DNA of 64,000 bases from Bacteroidales bacterium (GTDB lineage: Bacteria; Bacteroidota; Bacteroidia; Bacteroidales; Salinivirgaceae), in the NCBI GenBank assembly GCA_012519055.1, contig JAAYQU010000045.1:62001-126000 (forward strand). The letters run 5' to 3'. Shown here piece by piece: positions 37,814-48,551 of the stretch. Every line of letters starts with the position of its first letter. Positions within the stretch are counted from its first letter, which is position 1. The position numbers were made by a program, and so were the translations under genes. The notes beneath the pieces are model-generated. The model saw only the letters and a list, made by a program, of their open reading frames with translations. It searched no databases and was not told the DNA's origin.

Positions 37814-37844
37814 TTTTTTCTTGTATAAAAAGTGGCTAAATTTG
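37814..37844 (+). promoter_or_regulatory. Probable promoter of the glutamate-fermentation cluster
   Basis: TAAATTTG at 37837-37844 fits the -7 consensus TAnnTTTG exactly. A weak TTTT stands 19 bp upstream in the -33 position. The glmS ATG is 27 bp after the -7 box. No cobalamin riboswitch is visible in the 270-bp upstream region. Confidence 0.5.
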
Positions 37845-37870
37845 TACATAATTTTAATGATGATACTATA

Positions 37871-38281
37871 ATGAATGGAAAGACAATTGTAACCGGTGTA
37901 ATAGGTGCAGATGTCCACGCTGTTGGAAACAAGATTCTCGCTTATGCCTTGGAGCAAGCCGGATTTAAAGTTATTAATTTAGGAGTGATGGTATCGCAAG
38001 AAGAGTTTATTGAAGCAGCATTGGAAACCAACGCCGATGCTATTTTGATCTCTTCACTATACGGACACGGAGAAATTGACTGTAATGGACTGCGCGAGAA
38101 ATGCGATGAAGCAGGATTGAAAGACATTCCTCTTTTAGCTGGTGGAAATCTCGTAGTGGGGAAACAGAATTTCGAAGATGTGGAAAAACGATTCCTCGAT
38201 ATGGGTTTTACCCGCGTTTATCCCCCCGGAACTACCGTAGAAACAAGCATTGCAGATTTAAATGAAATTCTTGGATTATAA
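37871..38281 (+). CDS. glmS: Glutamate mutase (methylaspartate mutase) sigma subunit
   Basis: GlmS is the cobalamin-binding subunit of glutamate mutase, which interconverts L-glutamate and L-threo-3-methylaspartate by a radical mechanism. The 136-aa product has the base-off B12 motif DxHxxG (D14, H16, G19 in [10 protein letters not shown]), then [10 protein letters not shown] and [10 protein letters not shown], the Rossmann-like pattern of the family. Length and sequence closely follow the characterised clostridial protein. I use the ATG at 37871; an upstream GTG would precede the -7 box. First gene of the cluster. Confidence 0.96.
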
Positions 38282-38413
38282 CTAAACAAAAGTTTTGTTA
38301 TAGTTTGCTGATAATTTGTTGTATTGCTGACTATCTTGGTTATACAACGGAATTATTAAACTGATTTTTGGCATAGCCAAAATATGCGAAGTGAATAATA
38401 CTAAGTAGATATT

Positions 38414-39799
38414 ATGAATATCCTCACAGCAGACATTGGAAGCACTTACACTAAATTGACTGCAATTGACGCTACTACAAAGAAAATTCTTGCCACGTCT
38501 GTTGCTTTTACCACCATCGAAACCGATGTTATGGAGGGCTTTATGTCTGCGTTTTCTAAATTAGAGGAGAAAATAGGGGTGTTCAAGTACGATGAACTTC
38601 TTTGTTGTAGTAGTGCTGCTGGTGGATTAAAAATGGTAGCTCTGGGGCTTGTTCCTGAACTTACCGCAAAAGCTGCAAAACTCGCTGCTGCAAGTGCCGG
38701 GGCAAAAGTGGTAAAAACTTATGCTTTCGAAATATCGGAAGCCGAACAGACCGAAATATTTGAAATTAATCCTGACTTGGTGTTACTTTGCGGCGGAACT
38801 GATGGCGGAAACAAAGAGGTAATACTCGCCAATGCTCGTCGTCTGTGTCAGGTTGACTGCCCGTTTACTACAATTATTGCTGGTAATAAAAGCGCATCTT
38901 TCGAGCTTAGAGAGATTTTTGAAACATCGGGGAAATCGTTTGAAATCACAGAAAATGTGATGCCCGAATTCAATAAGCTAAATATCGAACCCGCAAGGTT
39001 AAAAATTAAAGAGCTCTTTATCAGCCGAATAATAGAGGCAAAAGGATTAAGTCGCATCCAAAAAATGTGTAAAACCGATATTATTCCAACACCCTTGGCA
39101 GTGCTAAACGGCTGTGAACTATTAAGCAAAGGTACAAAATCTATTGATGGGATAGGAGATTTACTTGCAGTGGATATTGGTGGAGCAACCACCGATATAT
39201 ATTCCATAGCAGACGGAAAACCCACCATAGAAAACGTAATCATAAAAGGATTGCCCGAACCATTTAGCAAACGCACAGTTGAGGGCGATTTAGGAATGCG
39301 TTATAGTCTGTTGTCTCTTGCTGATGAGCTTGACTTAGAGGCTATTGCAGAAGAAATTGGCTTGCAATCAACAGATATTTCAAATTGGGTAAAAACGTGT
39401 AGTGCAAATCCCGATACGTTGGCAGAACCTCAATCCAAGGAACAGAAAATAGAAGAGGCGTTAGCGCGTGGTGCTGTAAAAATTGCTGTGGAACGTCATG
39501 TTGGAGTTTATCAGCCAGTATATACGCCCTTTGGGCAGGTCTTTTCACTTACAGGAAAAGATTTATCGGCAGTACCTTTTGTGATAGGAATTGGTGGAGC
39601 TATTATCAATGCAGAAAACCCAAAATATATTTTGGAAGGTGCTAAGCTCCAGTCAGATGATTTTGTTTACGCAAAACCTAAAAATCCCGACTATTTAATC
39701 GACAAAAAATATATTTTCGCCTCTATGGGTTTGCTAAGTTCAGATTATCCTGATTTGGCATTGGAATTGATGAAAAAAGAGATAAAACAACCGAAATAA
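38414..39799 (+). CDS. glmL: Glutamate mutase accessory protein GlmL (MutL)
   Basis: A 461-aa ASKHA-fold ATPase with NILTADIGSTYTKLTAID at the N-terminus (phosphate 1 loop) and LLAVDIGGATTDIYSI near residue 255 (phosphate 2). MutL genes sit between the two glutamate mutase subunits in many anaerobes and are thought to load or reactivate the cobalamin enzyme, although this has not been firmly shown. It is 132 bp after glmS, the widest gap of the first three genes, with a small TTTTGGC/GCCAAAA hairpin at 38366-38382. Confidence 0.93.
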   Translation: MNILTADIGSTYTKLTAIDATTKKILATSVAFTTIETDVMEGFMSAFSKLEEKIGVFKYDELLCCSSAAGGLKMVALGLVPELTAKAAKLAAASAGAKVVKTYAFEISEAEQTEIFEINPDLVLLCGGTDGGNKEVILANARRLCQVDCPFTTIIAGNKSASFELREIFETSGKSFEITENVMPEFNKLNIEPARLKIKELFISRIIEAKGLSRIQKMCKTDIIPTPLAVLNGCELLSKGTKSIDGIGDLLAVDIGGATTDIYSIADGKPTIENVIIKGLPEPFSKRTVEGDLGMRYSLLSLADELDLEAIAEEIGLQSTDISNWVKTCSANPDTLAEPQSKEQKIEEALARGAVKIAVERHVGVYQPVYTPFGQVFSLTGKDLSAVPFVIGIGGAIINAENPKYILEGAKLQSDDFVYAKPKNPDYLIDKKYIFASMGLLSSDYPDLALELMKKEIKQPK

Positions 39800-39820
39800 A
39801 CAGAATAAAAAACTAAAATA

Positions 39821-41272
39821 ATGCAAATTAAAAACCAAAAACTTTCAGACGATAATTTCTTTGCCGAACGCAAGGAAGTTCTCGGGCATTGGCACACAGG
39901 AAAAAGTGTTAATTTTGATGAAGCCGTTGAATATCAAAAATCTATTCCAAAAGCGAAACGTTTTGGAGAGAAGCTTTCTAAAGCTGTTACCGATGGTATT
40001 ACACTTATCCAGCCACGTGCAGGCGTAGCACTTTACGATGAGCATATCAAACTACTTAACTTTCTTGAAACCGAAGGCGAGGCAGACCTTCTTCCAACAA
40101 CTGTTGACAGCTATACTCGTTTAAATCGCTACAACGAAGCTGAAACAGGTATTGAGAGAAGTAAAGAGACAGGACGCTCTATGCTTAACGGTTTTCCTAT
40201 TGTAAACTATGGAGTAGATATTTGTCGTCAAGTAACCTCGGCACTTAAAAATCCTGTTCAAGTGCGTCACGGAACGCCTGATGCTCGCTTGCTTACTGAA
40301 ATAAGCATTGCCGGAGGATTTACTTCATACGAAGGTGGCGGAATTTCATACAATATACCTTATTCAAAAGCTCACTCTATTGAAAAAACCATAGCACACT
40401 GGCAATACACTGACCGATTGGTAGGCTTGTATGAAGAAGCTGGAGTTTCTATTAATCGTGAACCATTTGGTCCGCTTACAGGAACGCTTATTTCTCCATG
40501 TATTTCCAACTCTGTGGCTATCATTGAAGCATTGTTGGCTGCCACGCAAGGTGTAAAAGATATCACAATAGGTTACGGACAATGTGGAAACCTTATTCAG
40601 GACGTTGCTGCCATTCGTTCGCTTAGTATTCTTGCTCGTGAATACCTTGATAAGTTCGGTTTCAAAGATGTGCGCATTACTACCGTTTTCCATCAATGGA
40701 TGGGTGGTTTTCCACAAGATGAAGCCAAAGCCTTTGGTGTAATTTCGTGGGGTGCTGCTGCGGCTGTACTTGCAAAAGCTACTAAAGTGATTGTTAAAAC
40801 TCCACACGAAGCAATGGGAGTACCTACCAAAGAAGCCAATGCAGCAGGATTACGTGCTACTAAACAGTTAGTTTCAATGCTGAAAGACCAGGATTTTCGT
40901 TCTATTCCTGCGGTAATTGCAGAAAGTGAAATCATTATGAAAGAGATGCATTGCATTTTAGACAAAGTGGAAGAATTAGGCAAGGGCGATTATGCCGTTG
41001 GAACCGTTGCAGCCTTTGAAGCAGGAGTATTGGATATTCCATTTGCGCCAAGTCGCTACAATGCAGGAAAAGTTATGCCCGCTCGTGATAACGTAGGGGC
41101 TGTTCGTTTCTTAGAAATAGGCAATATGCCTTTTACGCAAGACCTAATCGATTTCCATCGCCAAAAATTAGAAGAGCGTGCTAAATACGAAAAACGTGCT
41201 GTTAGCTTCCAAATGGTTATTGACGATGTTTACGCTATAGGCAAAGGATTTCTTGTAGGACGTCCAAAGTAA
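39821..41272 (+). CDS. glmE: Glutamate mutase (methylaspartate mutase) epsilon subunit
   Basis: GlmE is the TIM-barrel catalytic subunit that binds glutamate and, with GlmS, holds adenosylcobalamin at the interface. The 483-aa product matches the family in length and in segments such as [56 protein letters not shown] and [18 protein letters not shown]. It starts 21 bp after glmL. No truncation or frameshift. Confidence 0.97.
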
Positions 41273-41340
41273 ACAAATTCGGTACTAAAAGATATTTTGA
41301 AAATACTTTATAAACTTTTAACTTTCAACTTAATAAATAT

Positions 41341-42579
41341 ATGAAAATTACAAAAATTATTTGCGCTCCCGGCAAAACAGGCTTTTTCTTTGATGACCAA
41401 AAAGCCATTAAACAGGGAGCTAAAATAGATGGTGAATTCTATGAAGGAGAGCCAGTAACGCCAGGATTTACAGCAGTACGTCAAGCTGGAGAATCTATCT
41501 CGGTTATTTTTGTTCTCGAAAACGGAGCATTGGCTCACGGCGATTGTGCTGCCGTTCAATATTCGGGTGCAGGTGGTCGTGATCCACTTTTCCTTGCAGA
41601 AAACTTTATTCCTGTCATTGAAAAATATGTCGCACCACTTTACGTAGGTAAAGAGATTACCACGTTTCGTGAAATGGCTGAATTGGTGGATACAGGAATA
41701 AATCCTGAAAGAGGAAAGGTGTTTCATACTGCTATCCGCTACGGTGTTACGCAAGCGCTCTTAGATGCAGTAGCTAAAAGTCAAGGTAAACAAATGGCGC
41801 AAGTAATTGCAGAGGAGTATGGAACAGAAATTTCAAAAAAAATGATTCCTATTTTCTCGCAATCGGGAGATCTCCGCTACCTGAATGCCGACAAAATGAT
41901 CATGAAAGGTGCCGATGTGTTACCACACGCGCTTTTCAATAATGTAGAGACCAAAGTGGGCTTGAATGGAGAAAAAGTCAAAGATTATATTAAGTGGTTG
42001 AGAGACAGAATATTGAAGCTAAAACCGTATGATAGTTATAACCCAACAATCCATATTGATGTTTATGGTACATTAGGAATTGTTTTTAATGATGATTTTG
42101 AATCTATTGCAAATTATATAGGAGAACTTGAAAAACTGGCTAAACCGTTCTGTCTCCGTGTTGAAGGTCCGGTTGATATGGGTGAAAAAACCGCTCAAAT
42201 GGATGCACTACGCACTATACGTCAAAAGATGGAGCAGAAAGGAATTAAAGCTGAAATTGTTGCAGACGAGTGGTGTAACACGTTGCAAGATGTGATAGAT
42301 TTTTCAGCACACAAAGCAGGACATGTTATTCAAATTAAAACGCCCGACCTTGGCGGTATCAACAACACTATCGAAGCTGTTTTATACTGCAAAGAGCATG
42401 AAATGGGAGCATACCTCGGTGGTACATGTAACGAAACCTGTCGCTCGGCTGAGGTTTGTGCACATATTGCCATGGCGACATCGCCTGTTCAGTATCTTGC
42501 TAAACCCGGTATGGGCGTTGACGAAGGATATATGATTGTATATAACGAGATGAGTAGAATTCTTGCTCTTTGCAAGTAG
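41341..42579 (+). CDS. mal: Methylaspartate ammonia-lyase
   Basis: This enolase-superfamily enzyme removes ammonia from 3-methylaspartate to give mesaconate. The 412-aa product keeps the catalytic residues of the characterised clostridial enzyme with an offset of two: K333 in QIKTPDLGG, H196 in VLPHALF, and Mg ligands D240, E275 and D309. The order of segments, from QYSGAGGRDPLF to GTCNETCRSAEVCAHIAMA, is canonical. It follows glmE by 68 bp and makes the second step of the pathway. Confidence 0.97.
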   Translation: MKITKIICAPGKTGFFFDDQKAIKQGAKIDGEFYEGEPVTPGFTAVRQAGESISVIFVLENGALAHGDCAAVQYSGAGGRDPLFLAENFIPVIEKYVAPLYVGKEITTFREMAELVDTGINPERGKVFHTAIRYGVTQALLDAVAKSQGKQMAQVIAEEYGTEISKKMIPIFSQSGDLRYLNADKMIMKGADVLPHALFNNVETKVGLNGEKVKDYIKWLRDRILKLKPYDSYNPTIHIDVYGTLGIVFNDDFESIANYIGELEKLAKPFCLRVEGPVDMGEKTAQMDALRTIRQKMEQKGIKAEIVADEWCNTLQDVIDFSAHKAGHVIQIKTPDLGGINNTIEAVLYCKEHEMGAYLGGTCNETCRSAEVCAHIAMATSPVQYLAKPGMGVDEGYMIVYNEMSRILALCK

Positions 42580-42631
42580 TTGTCTTTGCTAAAGTCAAGA
42601 TGTATCAGTTCAATAGAAATTTATAATAAAA

Positions 42632-43990
42632 ATGAAAGAACTTAGAATATTATCCCCCACAGCTATTCTCGGATACGGATTTCCGATGGAATCGTTTGTG
42701 GAAGGAATGAAACGTAAACCGCACGTAATAGCAGTAGATGCAGGCTCAACCGATCCAGGACCATATTATTTAGGTGCAGGAAAATCGTTTACCGACCCCA
42801 ATTCAGTTAAACGCGACTTAGAGATTATGATTCCCGCCGCAATAGAAGCAGGGATTCCTCTAATTGTTGGTACTGCTGGAGGTTCAGGAGCGCGCCCGCA
42901 CGTGAATCTTACAGTAGATATTATTAAAGCTATTGCACGTGAGAAAAAATTGTCATTTAAAATGGCAGTTATTCAATCGGAATTTGATAAGGAGTTTGTA
43001 AAAGAGAACTTGCGAAAAGGAAATATTACGCCTCTCAATCCTGCTCCACAAATTACCGAAGCAGATATTGATGAATCTGTACATATAGTTGCACAAATGG
43101 GAGAGGAACCATTTATAGAAGCGTTGGAAAACGGGGCAGATGTAATTCTTGCCGGACGCAGTTACGACCCATCTGTCTTTTCGGCACTTGCTATTAAAAA
43201 TGGTTTCAACAAAGGACTTGCTATTCACTTAGGTAAGATTTTGGAATGTGCAGCTATTGCAGCCTTGCCCGGTAGCGGAAGTGATTGCATGTTTGGATAT
43301 CTACATGAAGATAATTTCGTGCTCGAACCACTATCGCCTTTGCGTAAATGTACTACGCTTTCTGTCGCAGCACATACATTGTACGAAAAAACTAACCCAT
43401 ATATTTTGCCCGGACCAGGTGGTGCAATCAATTTACATGAATCGAAATTTGAACAAATTGATGATAACAAAGTACGTGTTTCAGGAAGCCGTTTTGTACC
43501 AACCGAAGAGTATTTTGTGAAATTAGAAGGTGTTAAACGTGTGGGTTACAGAACAATCTCGTGTGCAGGAGTGAAAGACCCAATTATGATTTCAAAAATC
43601 GATAGCATTACTGAAAGTGTTAGAGATAGAGTGAAAAATAATTTTGAGTCATACGGAATAAAAGACTTCTTCTTAGATTTTAAAGTTTATGGAAGAAACG
43701 GAGTTATGGGAATGTTTCCGGATGCCCCACACAGCAAAAGCGACGAGTTGTTGATTATTATTGAAGCAGTTGCACCAACACAAGAGCAAGCCGATACAAT
43801 TTGCGGATTTGCTCGCAGTACAATGCTACACTTCGGATACGAAGGACGTATAGCAACGGCAGGAAACTTGGCATTTCCTTTCTCGCCATCAGATGCGAAA
43901 ATGGGAGAGGTGTTCGAGTTTAACGTCTATCATTTAATGAAAGTAAAAGATCCTAAGACATTGTTTCCGATAGAATATATCAAGTTTTGA
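42632..43990 (+). CDS. DUF1446 / AtuA-like protein
   Basis: A 452-aa cytosolic protein of the DUF1446 family, whose best-known name comes from the acyclic terpene utilisation protein AtuA. Conserved features include AVDAGSTDPGPYYLGAG near the start, IVGTAGGSGARPHVNL, GADVILAGRSYDPSVFSALA, and a C-terminal NGVMGMFPDAP. No biochemical activity is firmly known for the family. It is placed between mal and the mesaconase genes, so it may act on a C5 dicarboxylate or its CoA ester. That is inference. It is paired with the DUF4387 gene, 41 bp downstream. Confidence 0.85.
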   Translation: MKELRILSPTAILGYGFPMESFVEGMKRKPHVIAVDAGSTDPGPYYLGAGKSFTDPNSVKRDLEIMIPAAIEAGIPLIVGTAGGSGARPHVNLTVDIIKAIAREKKLSFKMAVIQSEFDKEFVKENLRKGNITPLNPAPQITEADIDESVHIVAQMGEEPFIEALENGADVILAGRSYDPSVFSALAIKNGFNKGLAIHLGKILECAAIAALPGSGSDCMFGYLHEDNFVLEPLSPLRKCTTLSVAAHTLYEKTNPYILPGPGGAINLHESKFEQIDDNKVRVSGSRFVPTEEYFVKLEGVKRVGYRTISCAGVKDPIMISKIDSITESVRDRVKNNFESYGIKDFFLDFKVYGRNGVMGMFPDAPHSKSDELLIIIEAVAPTQEQADTICGFARSTMLHFGYEGRIATAGNLAFPFSPSDAKMGEVFEFNVYHLMKVKDPKTLFPIEYIKF

Positions 43991-44031
43991 GTATCGCTCT
44001 AAATCATTGTATATCAATTAAAAACAGACAA

Positions 44032-44349
44032 ATGAAATATAAATTAACAGAAATAGCTTCAGTCATCAGAAGTAAAAATTCAGGTCCTTATGAGTTGACG
44101 TTCGATGTGATTTTTAAGGATTTCGAGATGTACGAACGTGTTAAAGCAGCAAAGATTTTTAATGAAAAAATGTTTGCTTCGTTGTATCATGTGCCCGAAT
44201 CAGATATTATCGGTGTGGTGCATTTCGATCCCGCAAAGGCAATAAAAACCACTATTGTTCGTCCAATCTCTTCGGGATCGTTGGGCGAAACTGACGTTTA
44301 CGGTGCACAACAGCACGCCCCGTTGATGAACTTTACGTTTGAATTATAA
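44032..44349 (+). CDS. DUF4387 protein
   Basis: A 105-aa product containing SVIRSKNSGPYELTFDVIF, HFDPAKAIKTTIVRP and GSLGETDVYGAQQHAPL, the pattern of DUF4387. In other genomes this domain is found next to or fused to the C-terminus of DUF1446 proteins, so the two genes here probably make one complex. I take the ATG at 44032; the frame begins further upstream only by using a TTG inside the preceding gene's stop region. Function unknown. Confidence 0.85.
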   Translation: MKYKLTEIASVIRSKNSGPYELTFDVIFKDFEMYERVKAAKIFNEKMFASLYHVPESDIIGVVHFDPAKAIKTTIVRPISSGSLGETDVYGAQQHAPLMNFTFEL

Positions 44350-44361
44350 AAACATAACCAA

Positions 44362-44424
44362 TGGCTTTTAACTGTTAGTTTGCATAATAACAATATATAC
44401 AAATCGACTAACAGTTAAAAGCCA
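44362..44424. repeat. 18-bp perfect inverted repeat inside the glutamate operon
   Basis: TGGCTTTTAACTGTTAGT at 44362-44379 is the exact reverse complement of 44407-44424, with a 27-nt AT-rich centre. The hairpin lies between the DUF4387 stop and the ATG of the P-loop gene. There is no T run after it, so it is more likely an RNA-processing, stability or attenuation element than a simple terminator. Confidence 0.75.
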
Positions 44425-44444
44425 ATATCAAATAGCAAAAAGTT

Positions 44445-45389
44445 ATGAACAACTTCATTCAAGAGTACATGGTTTCGTCGCAATATTTCGCACCACGCGG
44501 AAAGGAACGACTGATGTTTCTCGGTGAACAAATTTCACATCGACATCTCAATTTCAACGACAAACTTATTGCAGTATTGGGTGATGCAGGTGCAGGTAAA
44601 TCATCACTAATTAAAGGAATGTTTCCCGGTCTGCAGCTCTCTAATGATGATGATATTGTAAATCCTCACAAAATGCTGCAAGTGCGAAACTCTATGATGG
44701 AAGTAGATGAAGCGACTACATTTCATATTGATATTCGTTTTCAAATGGCGTTTACACAGATGTTTGAAATTGTGGATTATGTAAACTCTTTATTAGAGCG
44801 AAATCGCCGTGTAGTAGTTGAGCATTTTAACTTGTTATATCCTGCATTGGGCAGAAATGCTGATATTATTGTAGGCATTGGCGAGGAAATCATTGTTACT
44901 AGACCCAGTCTTTTCGGACCTCAGCCTGAGAGTGTTTATAATATTGTGCATGAGTCACTTCGATATCGAAAAATGGCGCATTCAGCAGAAGAAGTAACCA
45001 CAGAAGTTCTTCATGAAACTTTTGATATTATGGAGGAAGAATATTTTTTTTCTGATATCAGAAACGGATTTGTGATCAAATTCCATAAGAAACCAGATAT
45101 TGATTTGGAAAAGCTCGCACTTCTAATTGATGAAAAAATTGCTAAAAACCTGCCTATTTCATATTGCGATGAAAATCATATTATGTTGGGAGAAAGAGTT
45201 GTAAGTTGTGATGGACCGCGTTTGCATGTGAAAAACACATCAGAAATTGAAAATTTCTCGCTTATCAAGCGCTTTGTATATGATTCAGTTACCAACACAT
45301 ATTGTTTGATTGGTGTTGTGGATAATTATACAGAAGATTTAGAAAACCGAAATACCCGTTATTTCTTAGCTAGAAAAAATTTAGAATGA
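44445..45389 (+). CDS. P-loop NTPase with AlaRS-type second additional domain
   Basis: A 314-aa protein with an unusual make-up. Residues about 40-190 form a P-loop NTPase with Walker A GDAGAGKSS at 46-54 and a strand RRVVVEHFNLLYPAL that could hold the Walker B acid. Residues about 205-285 resemble the second additional domain of alanyl- and threonyl-tRNA synthetases: SCDGPRLHVKNTSEIENFSL parallels the CGGTHVxxTGEI motif, with C255 and H261. I have no proven function for it. Its stop overlaps the start of the hydratase alpha gene by 4 bp, so it is tied to the pathway. It might protect the enzyme or handle an activated intermediate. Confidence 0.82.
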   Translation: MNNFIQEYMVSSQYFAPRGKERLMFLGEQISHRHLNFNDKLIAVLGDAGAGKSSLIKGMFPGLQLSNDDDIVNPHKMLQVRNSMMEVDEATTFHIDIRFQMAFTQMFEIVDYVNSLLERNRRVVVEHFNLLYPALGRNADIIVGIGEEIIVTRPSLFGPQPESVYNIVHESLRYRKMAHSAEEVTTEVLHETFDIMEEEYFFSDIRNGFVIKFHKKPDIDLEKLALLIDEKIAKNLPISYCDENHIMLGERVVSCDGPRLHVKNTSEIENFSLIKRFVYDSVTNTYCLIGVVDNYTEDLENRNTRYFLARKNLE

Positions 45390-46228
45390 AAACTGTAAAA
45401 GCCTCAGATATTACCAATTTGGTTGAAAAGCTTTGTATCGATGCATGTTGTGATATCAGCGACGATATCAATAACAAATTTAAAAGTTGTTTAGAAACCG
45501 AAAAATCGCCTCTTGGCAAGAATGTTCTAAGAACACTTATCGAAAATGCTAAAATTGCTCGTGATGAGCGCAGCCCAATGTGTCAAGACACCGGCGTAAC
45601 AGTGGTTTTCGTTAAAATGGGACAAAACGTAAAAATAGAGGGAGGATTTATCGAAGATGCTATTAATCAAGGTGTTCGTCAAGGATACGAAAAGGGATAT
45701 TTACGTAAATCGGTGGTACGCAGCCCAATAGATCGTGTAAATACAGGCGATAACACGCCTGCCGTTATCCATTACGAAATTGTTCTCGAAGATGTTTTTC
45801 ATATTACCGTATCGCCCAAGGGCTTCGGTAGTGAAAACAAAAGCGCGTTGAAAATGCTTACACCAAGCGAAGGTGTTGAGGGTATAAAGCGTTTTGTGAT
45901 AGATACAGTTTCGGTAGCCGGAGGGAATCCTTGTCCGCCTATTATTGTAGGTGTTGGCATTGGTGGAACCATGGAGAAAGCAGCACTAATGAGCAAAAAA
46001 GCATTGCTCAGACCGTTAGATACAAAAAATCCCGATCCTGTACTTGCCAACTTAGAGGCAGAGCTACTTACCGAAATAAATAAACTCGGTATTGGTCCCG
46101 CTGGATTTGGAGGAACAACCACCGCTTTAGGTGTTCATATTTTGACATATGCCACACATATTGCAGGGCTGCCCGTATCTGTTAATATCAGTTGTCACGC
46201 AACTCGACACTCAGAGGGAGAACTGTAA
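45386..46228 (+). CDS. Class I fumarase-type hydratase, alpha subunit (probable mesaconase)
   Basis: The 280-aa product is the iron-sulfur half of a two-subunit class I fumarase. Three cysteines fit the cluster ligands: C66 in SPMCQDTG, C183 in GGNPCPP and C270 in SCHATRH. Fumarase and mesaconase belong to the same family, so substrate cannot be read from the motifs. The setting beside methylaspartate ammonia-lyase argues for mesaconate hydration to citramalate. The ATG overlaps the P-loop gene stop by 4 bp (ATGA). Confidence 0.92.
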
Positions 46229-46275
46229 GATAAAGAGCTGATAACCTTTTACTTTATTCCACAAAATTAAAAACT

Positions 46276-46833
46276 ATGAGTAATAAAAAGATACTACAAG
46301 CACCATTTTCAGACGAGACAATACGTTCACTTCGCGCCGGTGATATGGTCTATATTTCGGGTACGATTTATACAGCTCGCGATGCCGCACACAAACGACT
46401 ATATGAAATGCTTCAGCGTGGAGAACCAATGCCTTTCGATTTTACAGGACAGGTTGTATATTACGCAGGTCCGGCACCTGCTAAGCCCGGGAAACCAATT
46501 GGTTCTGTTGGTCCCACTACTGGCGGAAGAATGGATGCATATTCACCTACACTTATAGCCGAGGGACTAAAAGTTATGATAGGGAAAGGTACACGTAGTG
46601 CAGAAGTTATTGAAGCAATGAAAACCTACACAGGGGTTTACTTTGCCGCTATCGGCGGAGCCGCTGCACTAATGGCAAAATGTGTTCTAAGTGCAGAAGT
46701 TATCGCATTCGACGATTTGGGAACCGAAGCAATACGTAAACTGCAAGTTAAGGAACTGCCTGTTGTTGTAGCGGTCGATTCCGAGGGAAACGATGTTTAC
46801 AAAATGGCAATTAGCAACTATCAAGTTAAATAA
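46276..46833 (+). CDS. Class I fumarase-type hydratase, beta subunit (probable mesaconase)
   Basis: The 185-aa product is the C-terminal swivelling domain of class I fumarases, made as a separate chain. Typical segments are GDMVYISGTIYTARDAAHKR, GPAPAKPGKPIGSVGPTTGGRMD, MIGKGTRS and AAIGGAAALMAKCV. It follows the alpha gene by 47 bp and closes the cluster. With the alpha subunit it should convert mesaconate to citramalate, although ordinary fumarase activity is equally possible biochemically. Confidence 0.92.
   Translation: MSNKKILQAPFSDETIRSLRAGDMVYISGTIYTARDAAHKRLYEMLQRGEPMPFDFTGQVVYYAGPAPAKPGKPIGSVGPTTGGRMDAYSPTLIAEGLKVMIGKGTRSAEVIEAMKTYTGVYFAAIGGAAALMAKCVLSAEVIAFDDLGTEAIRKLQVKELPVVVAVDSEGNDVYKMAISNYQVK

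Positions 46834-47141: not shown

Positions 47142-48551
<1,410 letters not shown>

Follow-up and report, generated by a model that had tools for sequence, protein, structure and literature searches.

A predicted heteromeric citramalate lyase of the CmlA/CmlB kind in the methylaspartate operon of a Salinivirgaceae bacterium

Results

Gene content of the operon

The window analysed here is a 64,000-nucleotide stretch of contig JAAYQU010000045.1 (assembly GCA_012519055.1; Bacteroidales, Salinivirgaceae), in which nine genes lie on the + strand in the order glmS-glmL-glmE-mal-[A-B pair]-P-loop gene-mesaconase:

37832..38281, + strand: glmS, methylaspartate (glutamate) mutase subunit S (NCBIfam NF002612, 214 bits, cut-off 110)
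38414..39799, + strand: glmL (MutL), glutamate mutase reactivase/accessory protein (NF040745, 627 bits, cut-off 475)
39821..41272, + strand: glmE, glutamate mutase subunit E (TIGR01503, 766.8 bits, cut-off 390.1)
41341..42579, + strand: mal, methylaspartate ammonia-lyase, mesaconate-forming (TIGR01502, 572.9 bits, cut-off 286.15)
42632..43990, + strand: predicted cmlA-type gene for subunit A of a citramalate lyase, 452 aa, of the AtuA/DUF1446 family (PF07287, 87.4 bits, cut-off 22.8)
44032..44349, + strand: predicted cmlB-type gene (DUF4387) for subunit B of a citramalate lyase, running from an ATG at 44032 to a stop at 44349 (PF14330, 141.2 bits, cut-off 27)
44445..45389, + strand: P-loop/AlaX-like gene, 314 aa, often kept beside the pair (no Pfam family; structure model)
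45386..46228, + strand: mesaconase (class I fumarase) alpha subunit, by context (NF004885, fumarate hydratase, 416.8 bits, cut-off 276; PF05681)
46276..46833, + strand: mesaconase (class I fumarase) beta subunit, by context (NF005310, 269.6 bits, cut-off 238; PF05683)

The true start of glmS is probably an internal ATG near 37871, as the family match begins only at residue 15, and the mesaconase role of the two class I fumarase subunits is read from their operon context. With mal and this contextual mesaconase in the same operon, the pathway itself would supply the substrate of a citramalate lyase. The open reading frames confirm that the AtuA/DUF1446 and DUF4387 genes are adjacent, with a spacing of 41 bp. 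The initial annotation also placed them between mal and mesaconase, and this position stands, although the pair does not directly adjoin the mesaconase genes, the 314-aa gene (44445-45389) intervening. The product of that gene matches no Pfam family at E<=0.001; its structure model (pLDDT 83.5) combines an N-terminal P-loop ATPase domain resembling TsaE/YjeE (Z 8.7-9.4 over residues 5-159) with a C-terminal AlaRS-editing/AlaX-like domain (AlaX Z up to 12.7, rmsd 2.7, 125 residues). None of the operon proteins encoded at 37832-46833 matches CitD, CitE or CitF, and the CitF family (PF04223) has no match in the window's genome.

Relationship to a citramalate lyase of solved structure

Compared with all PDB sequences (phmmer), subunit A matched one distinct sequence, chain A of entries 9erq and 9evf (E 8.1e-154), residues 4-442 aligning with 5-440 of the 456 in 9erq; the next match had E 0.036, and such matches to Hsp90 (0.036 and worse) were dismissed as noise. 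The DUF4387 protein matched chain B of the same entries (E 9.4e-29, residues 1-104 of 105). These chains are named 'Citramalate lyase, subunit A (cmlA)' and 'subunit B (cmlB)', and 9evf, released on 2025-10-08, is entitled 'Citramalate lyase - ADP - pyruvate complex'. An AlphaFold2 model of subunit A (30-sequence alignment, pLDDT 87.0, pTM 0.85) superimposed on 9evf_A with a Z of 47.0 and an rmsd of 2.2 over 445 aligned residues at 52% identity, and Foldseek returned 9evf (E 2.0e-61, TM 0.92) and nothing else at E<=0.001; the identity to chain A across the two comparisons is 52-54%. Residues 301-429 of subunit A gave weak structural matches only, ferredoxin-fold proteins among these. The A protein of an E. 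coli glm operon matches the solved chain A with 974 bits across all 456 residues, which places the solved enzyme with those of enterobacterial glm clusters.

All features that could be compared here assign the predicted pair to the CmlAB kind. The nearly full-length alignment of both chains with 9erq/9evf agrees with the initial annotation, which took the pair for one two-part enzyme, possibly supplying the missing citramalate-cleaving or -activating step; its statement that these domains have no settled activity is out of date, AtuA having been listed in print as an acetate lyase (PMC4847356) and the glm-linked pair in the PDB since 2025. The enzyme kind is already known from the deposited structure, and only its occurrence and links are newly found here. 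Our literature search, which left subscription journals mostly uncovered, found no paper on the CmlA/CmlB enzyme; one may well exist.

Co-occurrence with glmE and distribution of the pair

Among 295 genomes of the window's order, glmE above 700 bits, subunit A above 700 bits and DUF4387 occur in the same four (G000, the window's own, with G580, G596 and G667). The association of glmE with subunit A has a Fisher P of 3.2e-9, or 2.4e-7 once the window's own genome is set aside. Two further genomes carry a divergent glmE without the pair (G473, 372 bits; G575, 309 bits, which also has CitF), and with all six genomes above the glmE cut-off counted, subunit A is present in 4/6 (P 4.9e-8). These P values overstate the association because the sampled genomes are related to each other. 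The other seven of the 11 matches from the A-subunit search of this order reached 21-37 bits, in frames of 601-629 aa that represent the fused classical type.

A wider sample consisted of the best 80 of 578 confirmed relatives, obtained with two peptide patterns and five seeds; three of the seeds were glm-linked, and the sample consequently leans towards glm operons. Loci were considered to have room when enough DNA was available on the side in question, and a neighbour was counted at 60 bits or more, on the same strand and within 9 kb, mesaconase being accepted on either strand. Among these best 80 of 578, DUF4387 lies downstream of subunit A, at 509 bp or less, in 78 of the 79 loci with room. 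At a distance of up to 9 kb, mal is present in 66/72, glmE in 62/67, a mesaconase relative in 32/44, and the 314-aa P-loop/AlaX gene in 52/70. The link between the pair and glmE thus extends to other taxa, and the co-occurrence and locus counts speak against a chance neighbourhood, which we rejected. The two domains had initially been described as occurring side by side or fused; the former arrangement is borne out by the 78 loci, but not the latter, since the one fused protein that was scanned (L155, 600 aa) has PF23544 behind its AtuA domain in place of DUF4387. For three of the five loci without glmE, the gene lies elsewhere in the genome, while none was found in Desulfoluna and Pelotomaculum. 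Ten genomes from the best 80 of 578 loci were searched as the locus showed no glmE, and three lack it altogether (L097, L113 and L117), L113 retaining a piece of mal.

In the same set of the best 80 of 578 relatives the pair is found in Bacteroidota, Bacillota, Spirochaetota, Synergistota, Chloroflexota, Elusimicrobiota and Thermodesulfobacteriota, many of these being metagenome-assembled genomes, and a midpoint-rooted tree with many long branches puts the window's protein among glm-linked sequences. A citramalate lyase of the CitF type does not always accompany the pair: CitF exceeds its cut-off in 7 of 53 A-subunit genomes, six of these matches being full length (the 53 derive from 50 of the best 80 of 578 loci plus six genomes, with L062 left out and G473 and G575, which have no subunit A, excluded). 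Three Vallitalea loci among the best 80 of 578 (L096, L102 and L108) hold the pair inside a glm operon, and no CitF was found in Vallitalea genomes G721, G725 and G728; as judged from sequence, the pair offers an answer to the published citramalate lyase gap of that genus.

Relatives at 36-58% identity occur in operons that lack glmE. On a Neorhizobium galegae plasmid and on a Klebsiella plasmid the pair accompanies a class I fumarase with no glm match in the locus, and these could possibly be mesaconate-to-pyruvate modules fed by other pathways. Among the papers listed for galegine breakdown by bacteria, none fitted. Still more divergent pairs, at 42% and 36% identity, have genes for a tricarboxylate transporter and RraA, or for a CoA lyase and a CoA-transferase, as neighbours and may act on other hydroxy acids.

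Exclusion of CitF from clostridial glm operons carrying the pair

A search of 391 genomes from the class of Petroclostridium gave 20 with a glmE of at least 726 bits, and these were counted; G762 (glmE 421 bits, with subunit A at 508 bits on the same contig and CitF on another) and G938 (22 bits) were dropped. Subunit A is present in 6/20 (549-684 bits), 2.6-2.8 kb from glmE (start to start) in five and on another contig in the sixth. All 14 remaining genomes carry CitF, which in 13 lies on the same contig as glmE at a distance of 4.8-6.4 kb; in the fourteenth (G1078), glmE is on another contig. Subunit A was absent from these 14 CitF-carrying genomes, G928 giving a 17.7-bit match. Two of the six A-subunit genomes also have CitF, away from glmE (at 108 kb in G720, on another contig in G822). 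Glm-linked CitF therefore occurs in 0/6 genomes with subunit A versus 13/14 without it (P 1.8e-4, optimistic given the relatedness of the genomes). Among the 59 of 369 glmE-negative clostridial genomes that were tested, none has a close relative of subunit A; two encode a relative at 36-38% identity, and another gave a match to a fragment at 31 bits. In this sample, a glm operon never holds both lyases, which looks like non-homologous replacement of one by the other.

Discussion

Proposed function and mechanism

We hold it to be highly probable that the pair encodes a heteromeric (S)-citramalate lyase of the CmlA/CmlB kind, a degree of confidence that attaches to the citramalate-lyase function and not to the ATP step considered below. 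Support for this function is shown by two-chain homology, the fold of the modelled chain A, operon position, and mutually exclusive occurrence with glm-linked CitF in our sample. Points that count against it are the relatives in operons lacking glmE, the six A-subunit genomes with a full-length CitF, the two genomes of the order whose divergent glmE comes without the pair, and an orphan CitE-like protein in the window's genome. Citramalate from the neighbouring mesaconase would be cut by CmlAB into pyruvate and an acetyl product, completing a route from glutamate through methylaspartate, mesaconate and citramalate to pyruvate and acetate, in which CmlAB would take the place of the unrelated acyl-carrier-protein enzyme, CitDEF, of other glutamate fermenters.

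Breaking the C2-C3 bond of citramalate leaves a carbanion on the acetate arm, and the carboxylate therefore needs activation, which CitDEF provides in the form of an acyl-carrier thioester. As neither a carrier protein nor a CoA-transferase was found in the operon, phosphorylation by ATP is the simplest reading of the ADP-pyruvate complex. ATP would phosphorylate the carboxylate of the -CH2-COO- arm to an acyl phosphate, equal in role to the CitDEF thioester; retro-aldol cleavage of this acyl phosphate would yield pyruvate and acetyl phosphate; and ATP would be regained from acetyl phosphate and ADP, either on the enzyme or via acetate kinase, such that the net conversion is of citramalate to pyruvate and acetate with ATP in a catalytic role. 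Acetate kinase was found in 17 of 18 genomes with subunit A (from 14 of the best 80 of 578 loci plus four genomes), G733 being the exception, and ATP could therefore be regained, which lends slight support to the scheme; the kinase is common in fermenters and was also found in 9 of 14 control genomes. We infer activation by ATP and cleavage to acetyl phosphate from the title of 9evf, in which ADP could instead be a regulator, and put the chances of this sequence of events at about even.

Alternative explanations

The ATP step, and it alone, has a competitor in a nucleotide-independent lyase, which would cleave citramalate by a metal- or general-base-assisted retro-aldol reaction and release free acetate directly, the ADP of 9evf being regulatory or adventitious. 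Aldol lyases that release a carboxylate directly exist, isocitrate lyase among them, and the PDB entries are called plainly 'citramalate lyase'; the report of ADP and pyruvate together in one complex (9evf) weighs against this mechanism, which we regard as possible but somewhat unlikely. A much more improbable reading has the operon working in reverse, with CmlAB and ATP condensing acetate and pyruvate to (S)-citramalate, which mesaconase, methylaspartase and glutamate mutase would then carry to glutamate. The reactions of the pathway are reversible in principle, and an ADP-pyruvate complex suits synthesis as much as cleavage; however, a CitF-type lyase fills the same slot of other glm operons, and published accounts assign such clusters to glutamate fermentation (PMC4682846, PMC8473912).

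We give slightly less credence again to a route in which a CoA-transferase converts citramalate to its CoA ester and a citramalyl-CoA lyase of the CitE/RipC type cleaves that ester, while the pair does something else. Such a route is drawn for mesaconate utilisation in, for example, Burkholderia xenovorans (PMC4682846); the window's genome has one CitE-like protein, and HpcH_HpaI matches above 80 bits occur in 7 of 18 genomes with subunit A (again from 14 of the best 80 of 578 loci plus four genomes). Yet in 11 of those 18 there is no such match above 30 bits, and the CitE-like protein of the window's genome (279 aa, the sole HpcH_HpaI protein found there) scores 92.1 bits against a citE cut-off of 443.4 and 79.1 bits against a RipC cut-off of 375, so that no RipC equivalog was found in the genome; its gene, moreover, lies between those for RNase Y and biotin ligase, and not beside a CoA-transferase. 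With no CoA-transferase match in the operon and this orphan protein far below the curated cut-offs, we likewise rejected the pair as a CoA-ester enzyme. Annotation of the DUF1446 gene as methylaspartate ammonia-lyase, which Kronen and Berg called unexplained (PMC4682846), was rejected for subunit A as well, mal being a separate gene here.

Implications

A citramalate lyase of the CmlAB kind would close two gaps in the printed record, namely how enterobacteria with the glm cluster dispose of citramalate (PMC4682846) and which citramalate lyase Vallitalea uses (PMC6163223). The present analysis adds three points to the deposited structure: the two lyases are mutually exclusive in the glm operons sampled, the pair is widespread, and it can be linked to AtuA chemistry. 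Our results indicate that the methylaspartate pathway ends with either of two unrelated enzymes, which in our sample never share a glm operon. Annotation that looks for CitDEF only therefore overlooks this pathway in many members of the Bacteroidota, Bacillota and Spirochaetota.

Comparison with known systems

Of the 395 genomes searched in the phylum, 152 have a PF07287 match, almost all of them much stronger than that of the window's protein (E 1.9e-13 in this search, against values under 1e-100 for most others). The stronger matches that were looked at are of the classical type, so that the PF07287 label by itself is no marker of a CmlA-type enzyme; by score, the window's protein belongs to PF07287, but it is not a classical AtuA. 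Classical AtuA is 19-22% identical to the window's subunit A. Its partner domain is PF23544, 'AtuA_ferredoxin' (in one fused and one unfused protein), whereas the partner in the window matches DUF4387 as its sole family at E<=0.001, with PF23544 not reaching that level. A comparison of the DUF4387 and AtuA_ferredoxin profiles (probability 3%, P 0.015, 37 columns at an RS..G motif) is too weak to establish kinship. The operon of the fused classical AtuA includes biotin carboxylase, enoyl-CoA hydratase and acyl-CoA dehydrogenase, while no acyl-CoA carboxylase, enoyl-CoA hydratase or acyl-CoA dehydrogenase is present among the nine proteins of the operon at 37832-46833.

Classical AtuA does share the AtuA/DUF1446 domain, with 23 columns invariant across six Cml-like and five classical proteins, columns that are not certain at about 20% identity; the invariant residues include D41, R176, D179, E205, C206, Y251, E252, K297 and E372. 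For Thauera, AtuA is listed among enzymes 'characterized or tentatively identified', as acetate lyase, and its proposed reaction, like that of a citramalate lyase, takes acetate off a tertiary 3-hydroxy acid (PMC4847356); a review credits the same reaction to LiuE, not to AtuA (PMC4097962). Because of the 23 invariant columns and the acetate-removing reaction of AtuA, we tentatively suggest, as a speculation we would sooner doubt than defend, that AtuA/DUF1446 proteins with their partner of approximately 100 residues (DUF4387 or AtuA_ferredoxin) constitute one superfamily of ATP-dependent acetate-releasing lyases. The substrate would be a tertiary 3-hydroxy acid whose free -CH2-COO- arm the enzyme turns into an acyl phosphate, and a retro-aldol reaction would then split this into a ketone and acetyl phosphate. 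CmlAB would then act on citramalate, AtuA on 3-hydroxy-3-isohexenylglutaryl-CoA, and further branches on other substrates. If true, this would account for the loss of acetate, and not of acetyl-CoA, in the terpene pathway as it is written, and would constitute a third carboxylate activation for such cleavage, besides acyl-ACP and acyl-CoA thioesters; equally, AtuA would gain a concrete, testable reaction if the acyl-phosphate reading of CmlAB is true.

The CitDEF-type lyase of Clostridium tetanomorphum and its relatives catalyses the same reaction from the same place in the glm operon (PMC4682846), but its proteins are unrelated to CmlAB, and the window's genome has no CitF. In the account of Kronen and Berg (2015), cells high in citrate lyase, isocitrate lyase or methylcitrate-cycle activity showed no citramalate lyase activity, the fate of citramalate was 'still unclear', and a DUF1446 gene of then unknown function lay downstream of mal in enterobacteria and Dictyoglomus (PMC4682846). 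The genome of Vallitalea guaymasensis was described as complete for the methylaspartate pathway but for citramalate lyase, and an undescribed enzyme was suggested (PMC6163223). The DUF1446 gene in the methylaspartate cluster of E. coli O157:H7 is, as in the window, downstream of mal; the match to 9erq was seen in another E. coli strain.

The E. coli glm operon runs glmS-glmL-glmE-mal-A-B-transporter-class I fumarase-cobO, and differs from that of the window after the pair, where the window has the P-loop/AlaX-like gene and a split mesaconase in place of the transporter, the fumarase (in one piece in E. coli) and cobO. A hypothetical protein of E. coli (L033) is also 314 aa long, with no detectable relationship to the window's 314-aa protein. 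The closest of these systems is the solved CmlA/CmlB (9erq/9evf): about half of the residues differ from those of the window's pair, while both subunits are alike over nearly their full length, the fold of subunit A is alike, and the place in the glm operon is as in E. coli.

The 314-aa gene and a probable amino-acid fermentation context

Between the CmlA/CmlB pair (AtuA/DUF1446 and DUF4387, the proposed citramalate lyase subunits A and B) and the mesaconase gene of the glm operon lies a gene assigned to no Pfam family; a short way downstream of the operon, on the opposite strand, is a tyrosine phenol-lyase gene.

Window 44445-45389, + strand: 314-aa gene
Window 47142-48521, - strand: tyrosine phenol-lyase gene (TIGR02618, 914.9 bits)

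Among the best 80 of 578 relatives of the A subunit, the 314-aa gene neighbours the pair in 52 of the 70 loci with sufficient DNA on that side. Its structure model comprises two domains, a TsaE/YjeE-like P-loop and an AlaRS-editing/AlaX-like domain, and residues H179, E182, C255, and R259 are invariant across an alignment of 23 proteins. Searches of the Escherichia coli, Klebsiella, and Neorhizobium loci returned no match to this protein. Its role might be to protect translation from methylaspartate, or it might assist the B12 mutase.

Taken with the glm operon, the tyrosine phenol-lyase gene suggests that the bacterium ferments amino acids. An iron-dependent stimulon described for Prevotella intermedia includes its mal and AtuA-family genes (PIOMA14_II_0010-0012), with changes of 2.2-2.5-fold (PMC10434189); this would fit an Fe-S mesaconase encoded in the same operon.

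An orphan CitE-like protein

Contig 46, 85529-86158 (L170:5524-6360): CitE-like protein of the window's own genome, 279 aa, orphan

This gene is flanked by those encoding RNase Y and biotin ligase, and its product scores under the curated cut-offs of both citE and RipC. Petrimonas carries a CitE-like protein of similar score (81.5 bits).

CmlAB beyond the glm operon

L097:10001-11682: CmlAB, Desulfoluna
L117:9995-11955: CmlAB, Pelotomaculum
L035:7949-18886: CmlA/CmlB gene run, Klebsiella pneumoniae plasmid pHNLC3
L036:1721-12192: CmlA/CmlB gene run, Neorhizobium galegae plasmid pHAMBI1141b
L155:905-8343: classical Atu-type row, genome from the window's order

The Desulfoluna and Pelotomaculum pairs (66 and 64% identity, respectively) are similar in sequence to the glm-linked type; no glmE match was found in either genome, nor any mesaconase relative within 9 kb of CmlAB.

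On pHNLC3, typed as conjugative, the order is LysR-CmlA-CmlB-ALDH-SDR-ADH-ALDH-fumarase-semialdehyde dehydrogenase, apparently a catabolic module with mesaconate and citramalate at its end. An A-subunit relative occurs in 12 Klebsiella plasmid records, the neighbourhood having been read in pHNLC3 alone.

Neorhizobium galegae is a nodule symbiont of Galega officinalis, and its plasmid combines, in one run, ferredoxin reductase, aldehyde dehydrogenase, class III aminotransferase, 2Fe-2S ferredoxin, arginase-family hydrolase, P450, SDR, CmlA, CmlB, and fumarase. Galegine is described as the dominant alkaloid of this plant (PMC9166927). A literature search yielded no fitting account of bacterial galegine breakdown; from gene content, we infer a possible route from galegine via prenylamine, prenal, mesaconate, and citramalate to pyruvate and acetate.

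Within the window's own order, the L155 row (carboxyltransferase, enoyl-CoA hydratase, biotin carboxylase, fused AtuA-AtuA_ferredoxin, and acyl-CoA dehydrogenase) shows the same gene arrangement as the classical Atu system.
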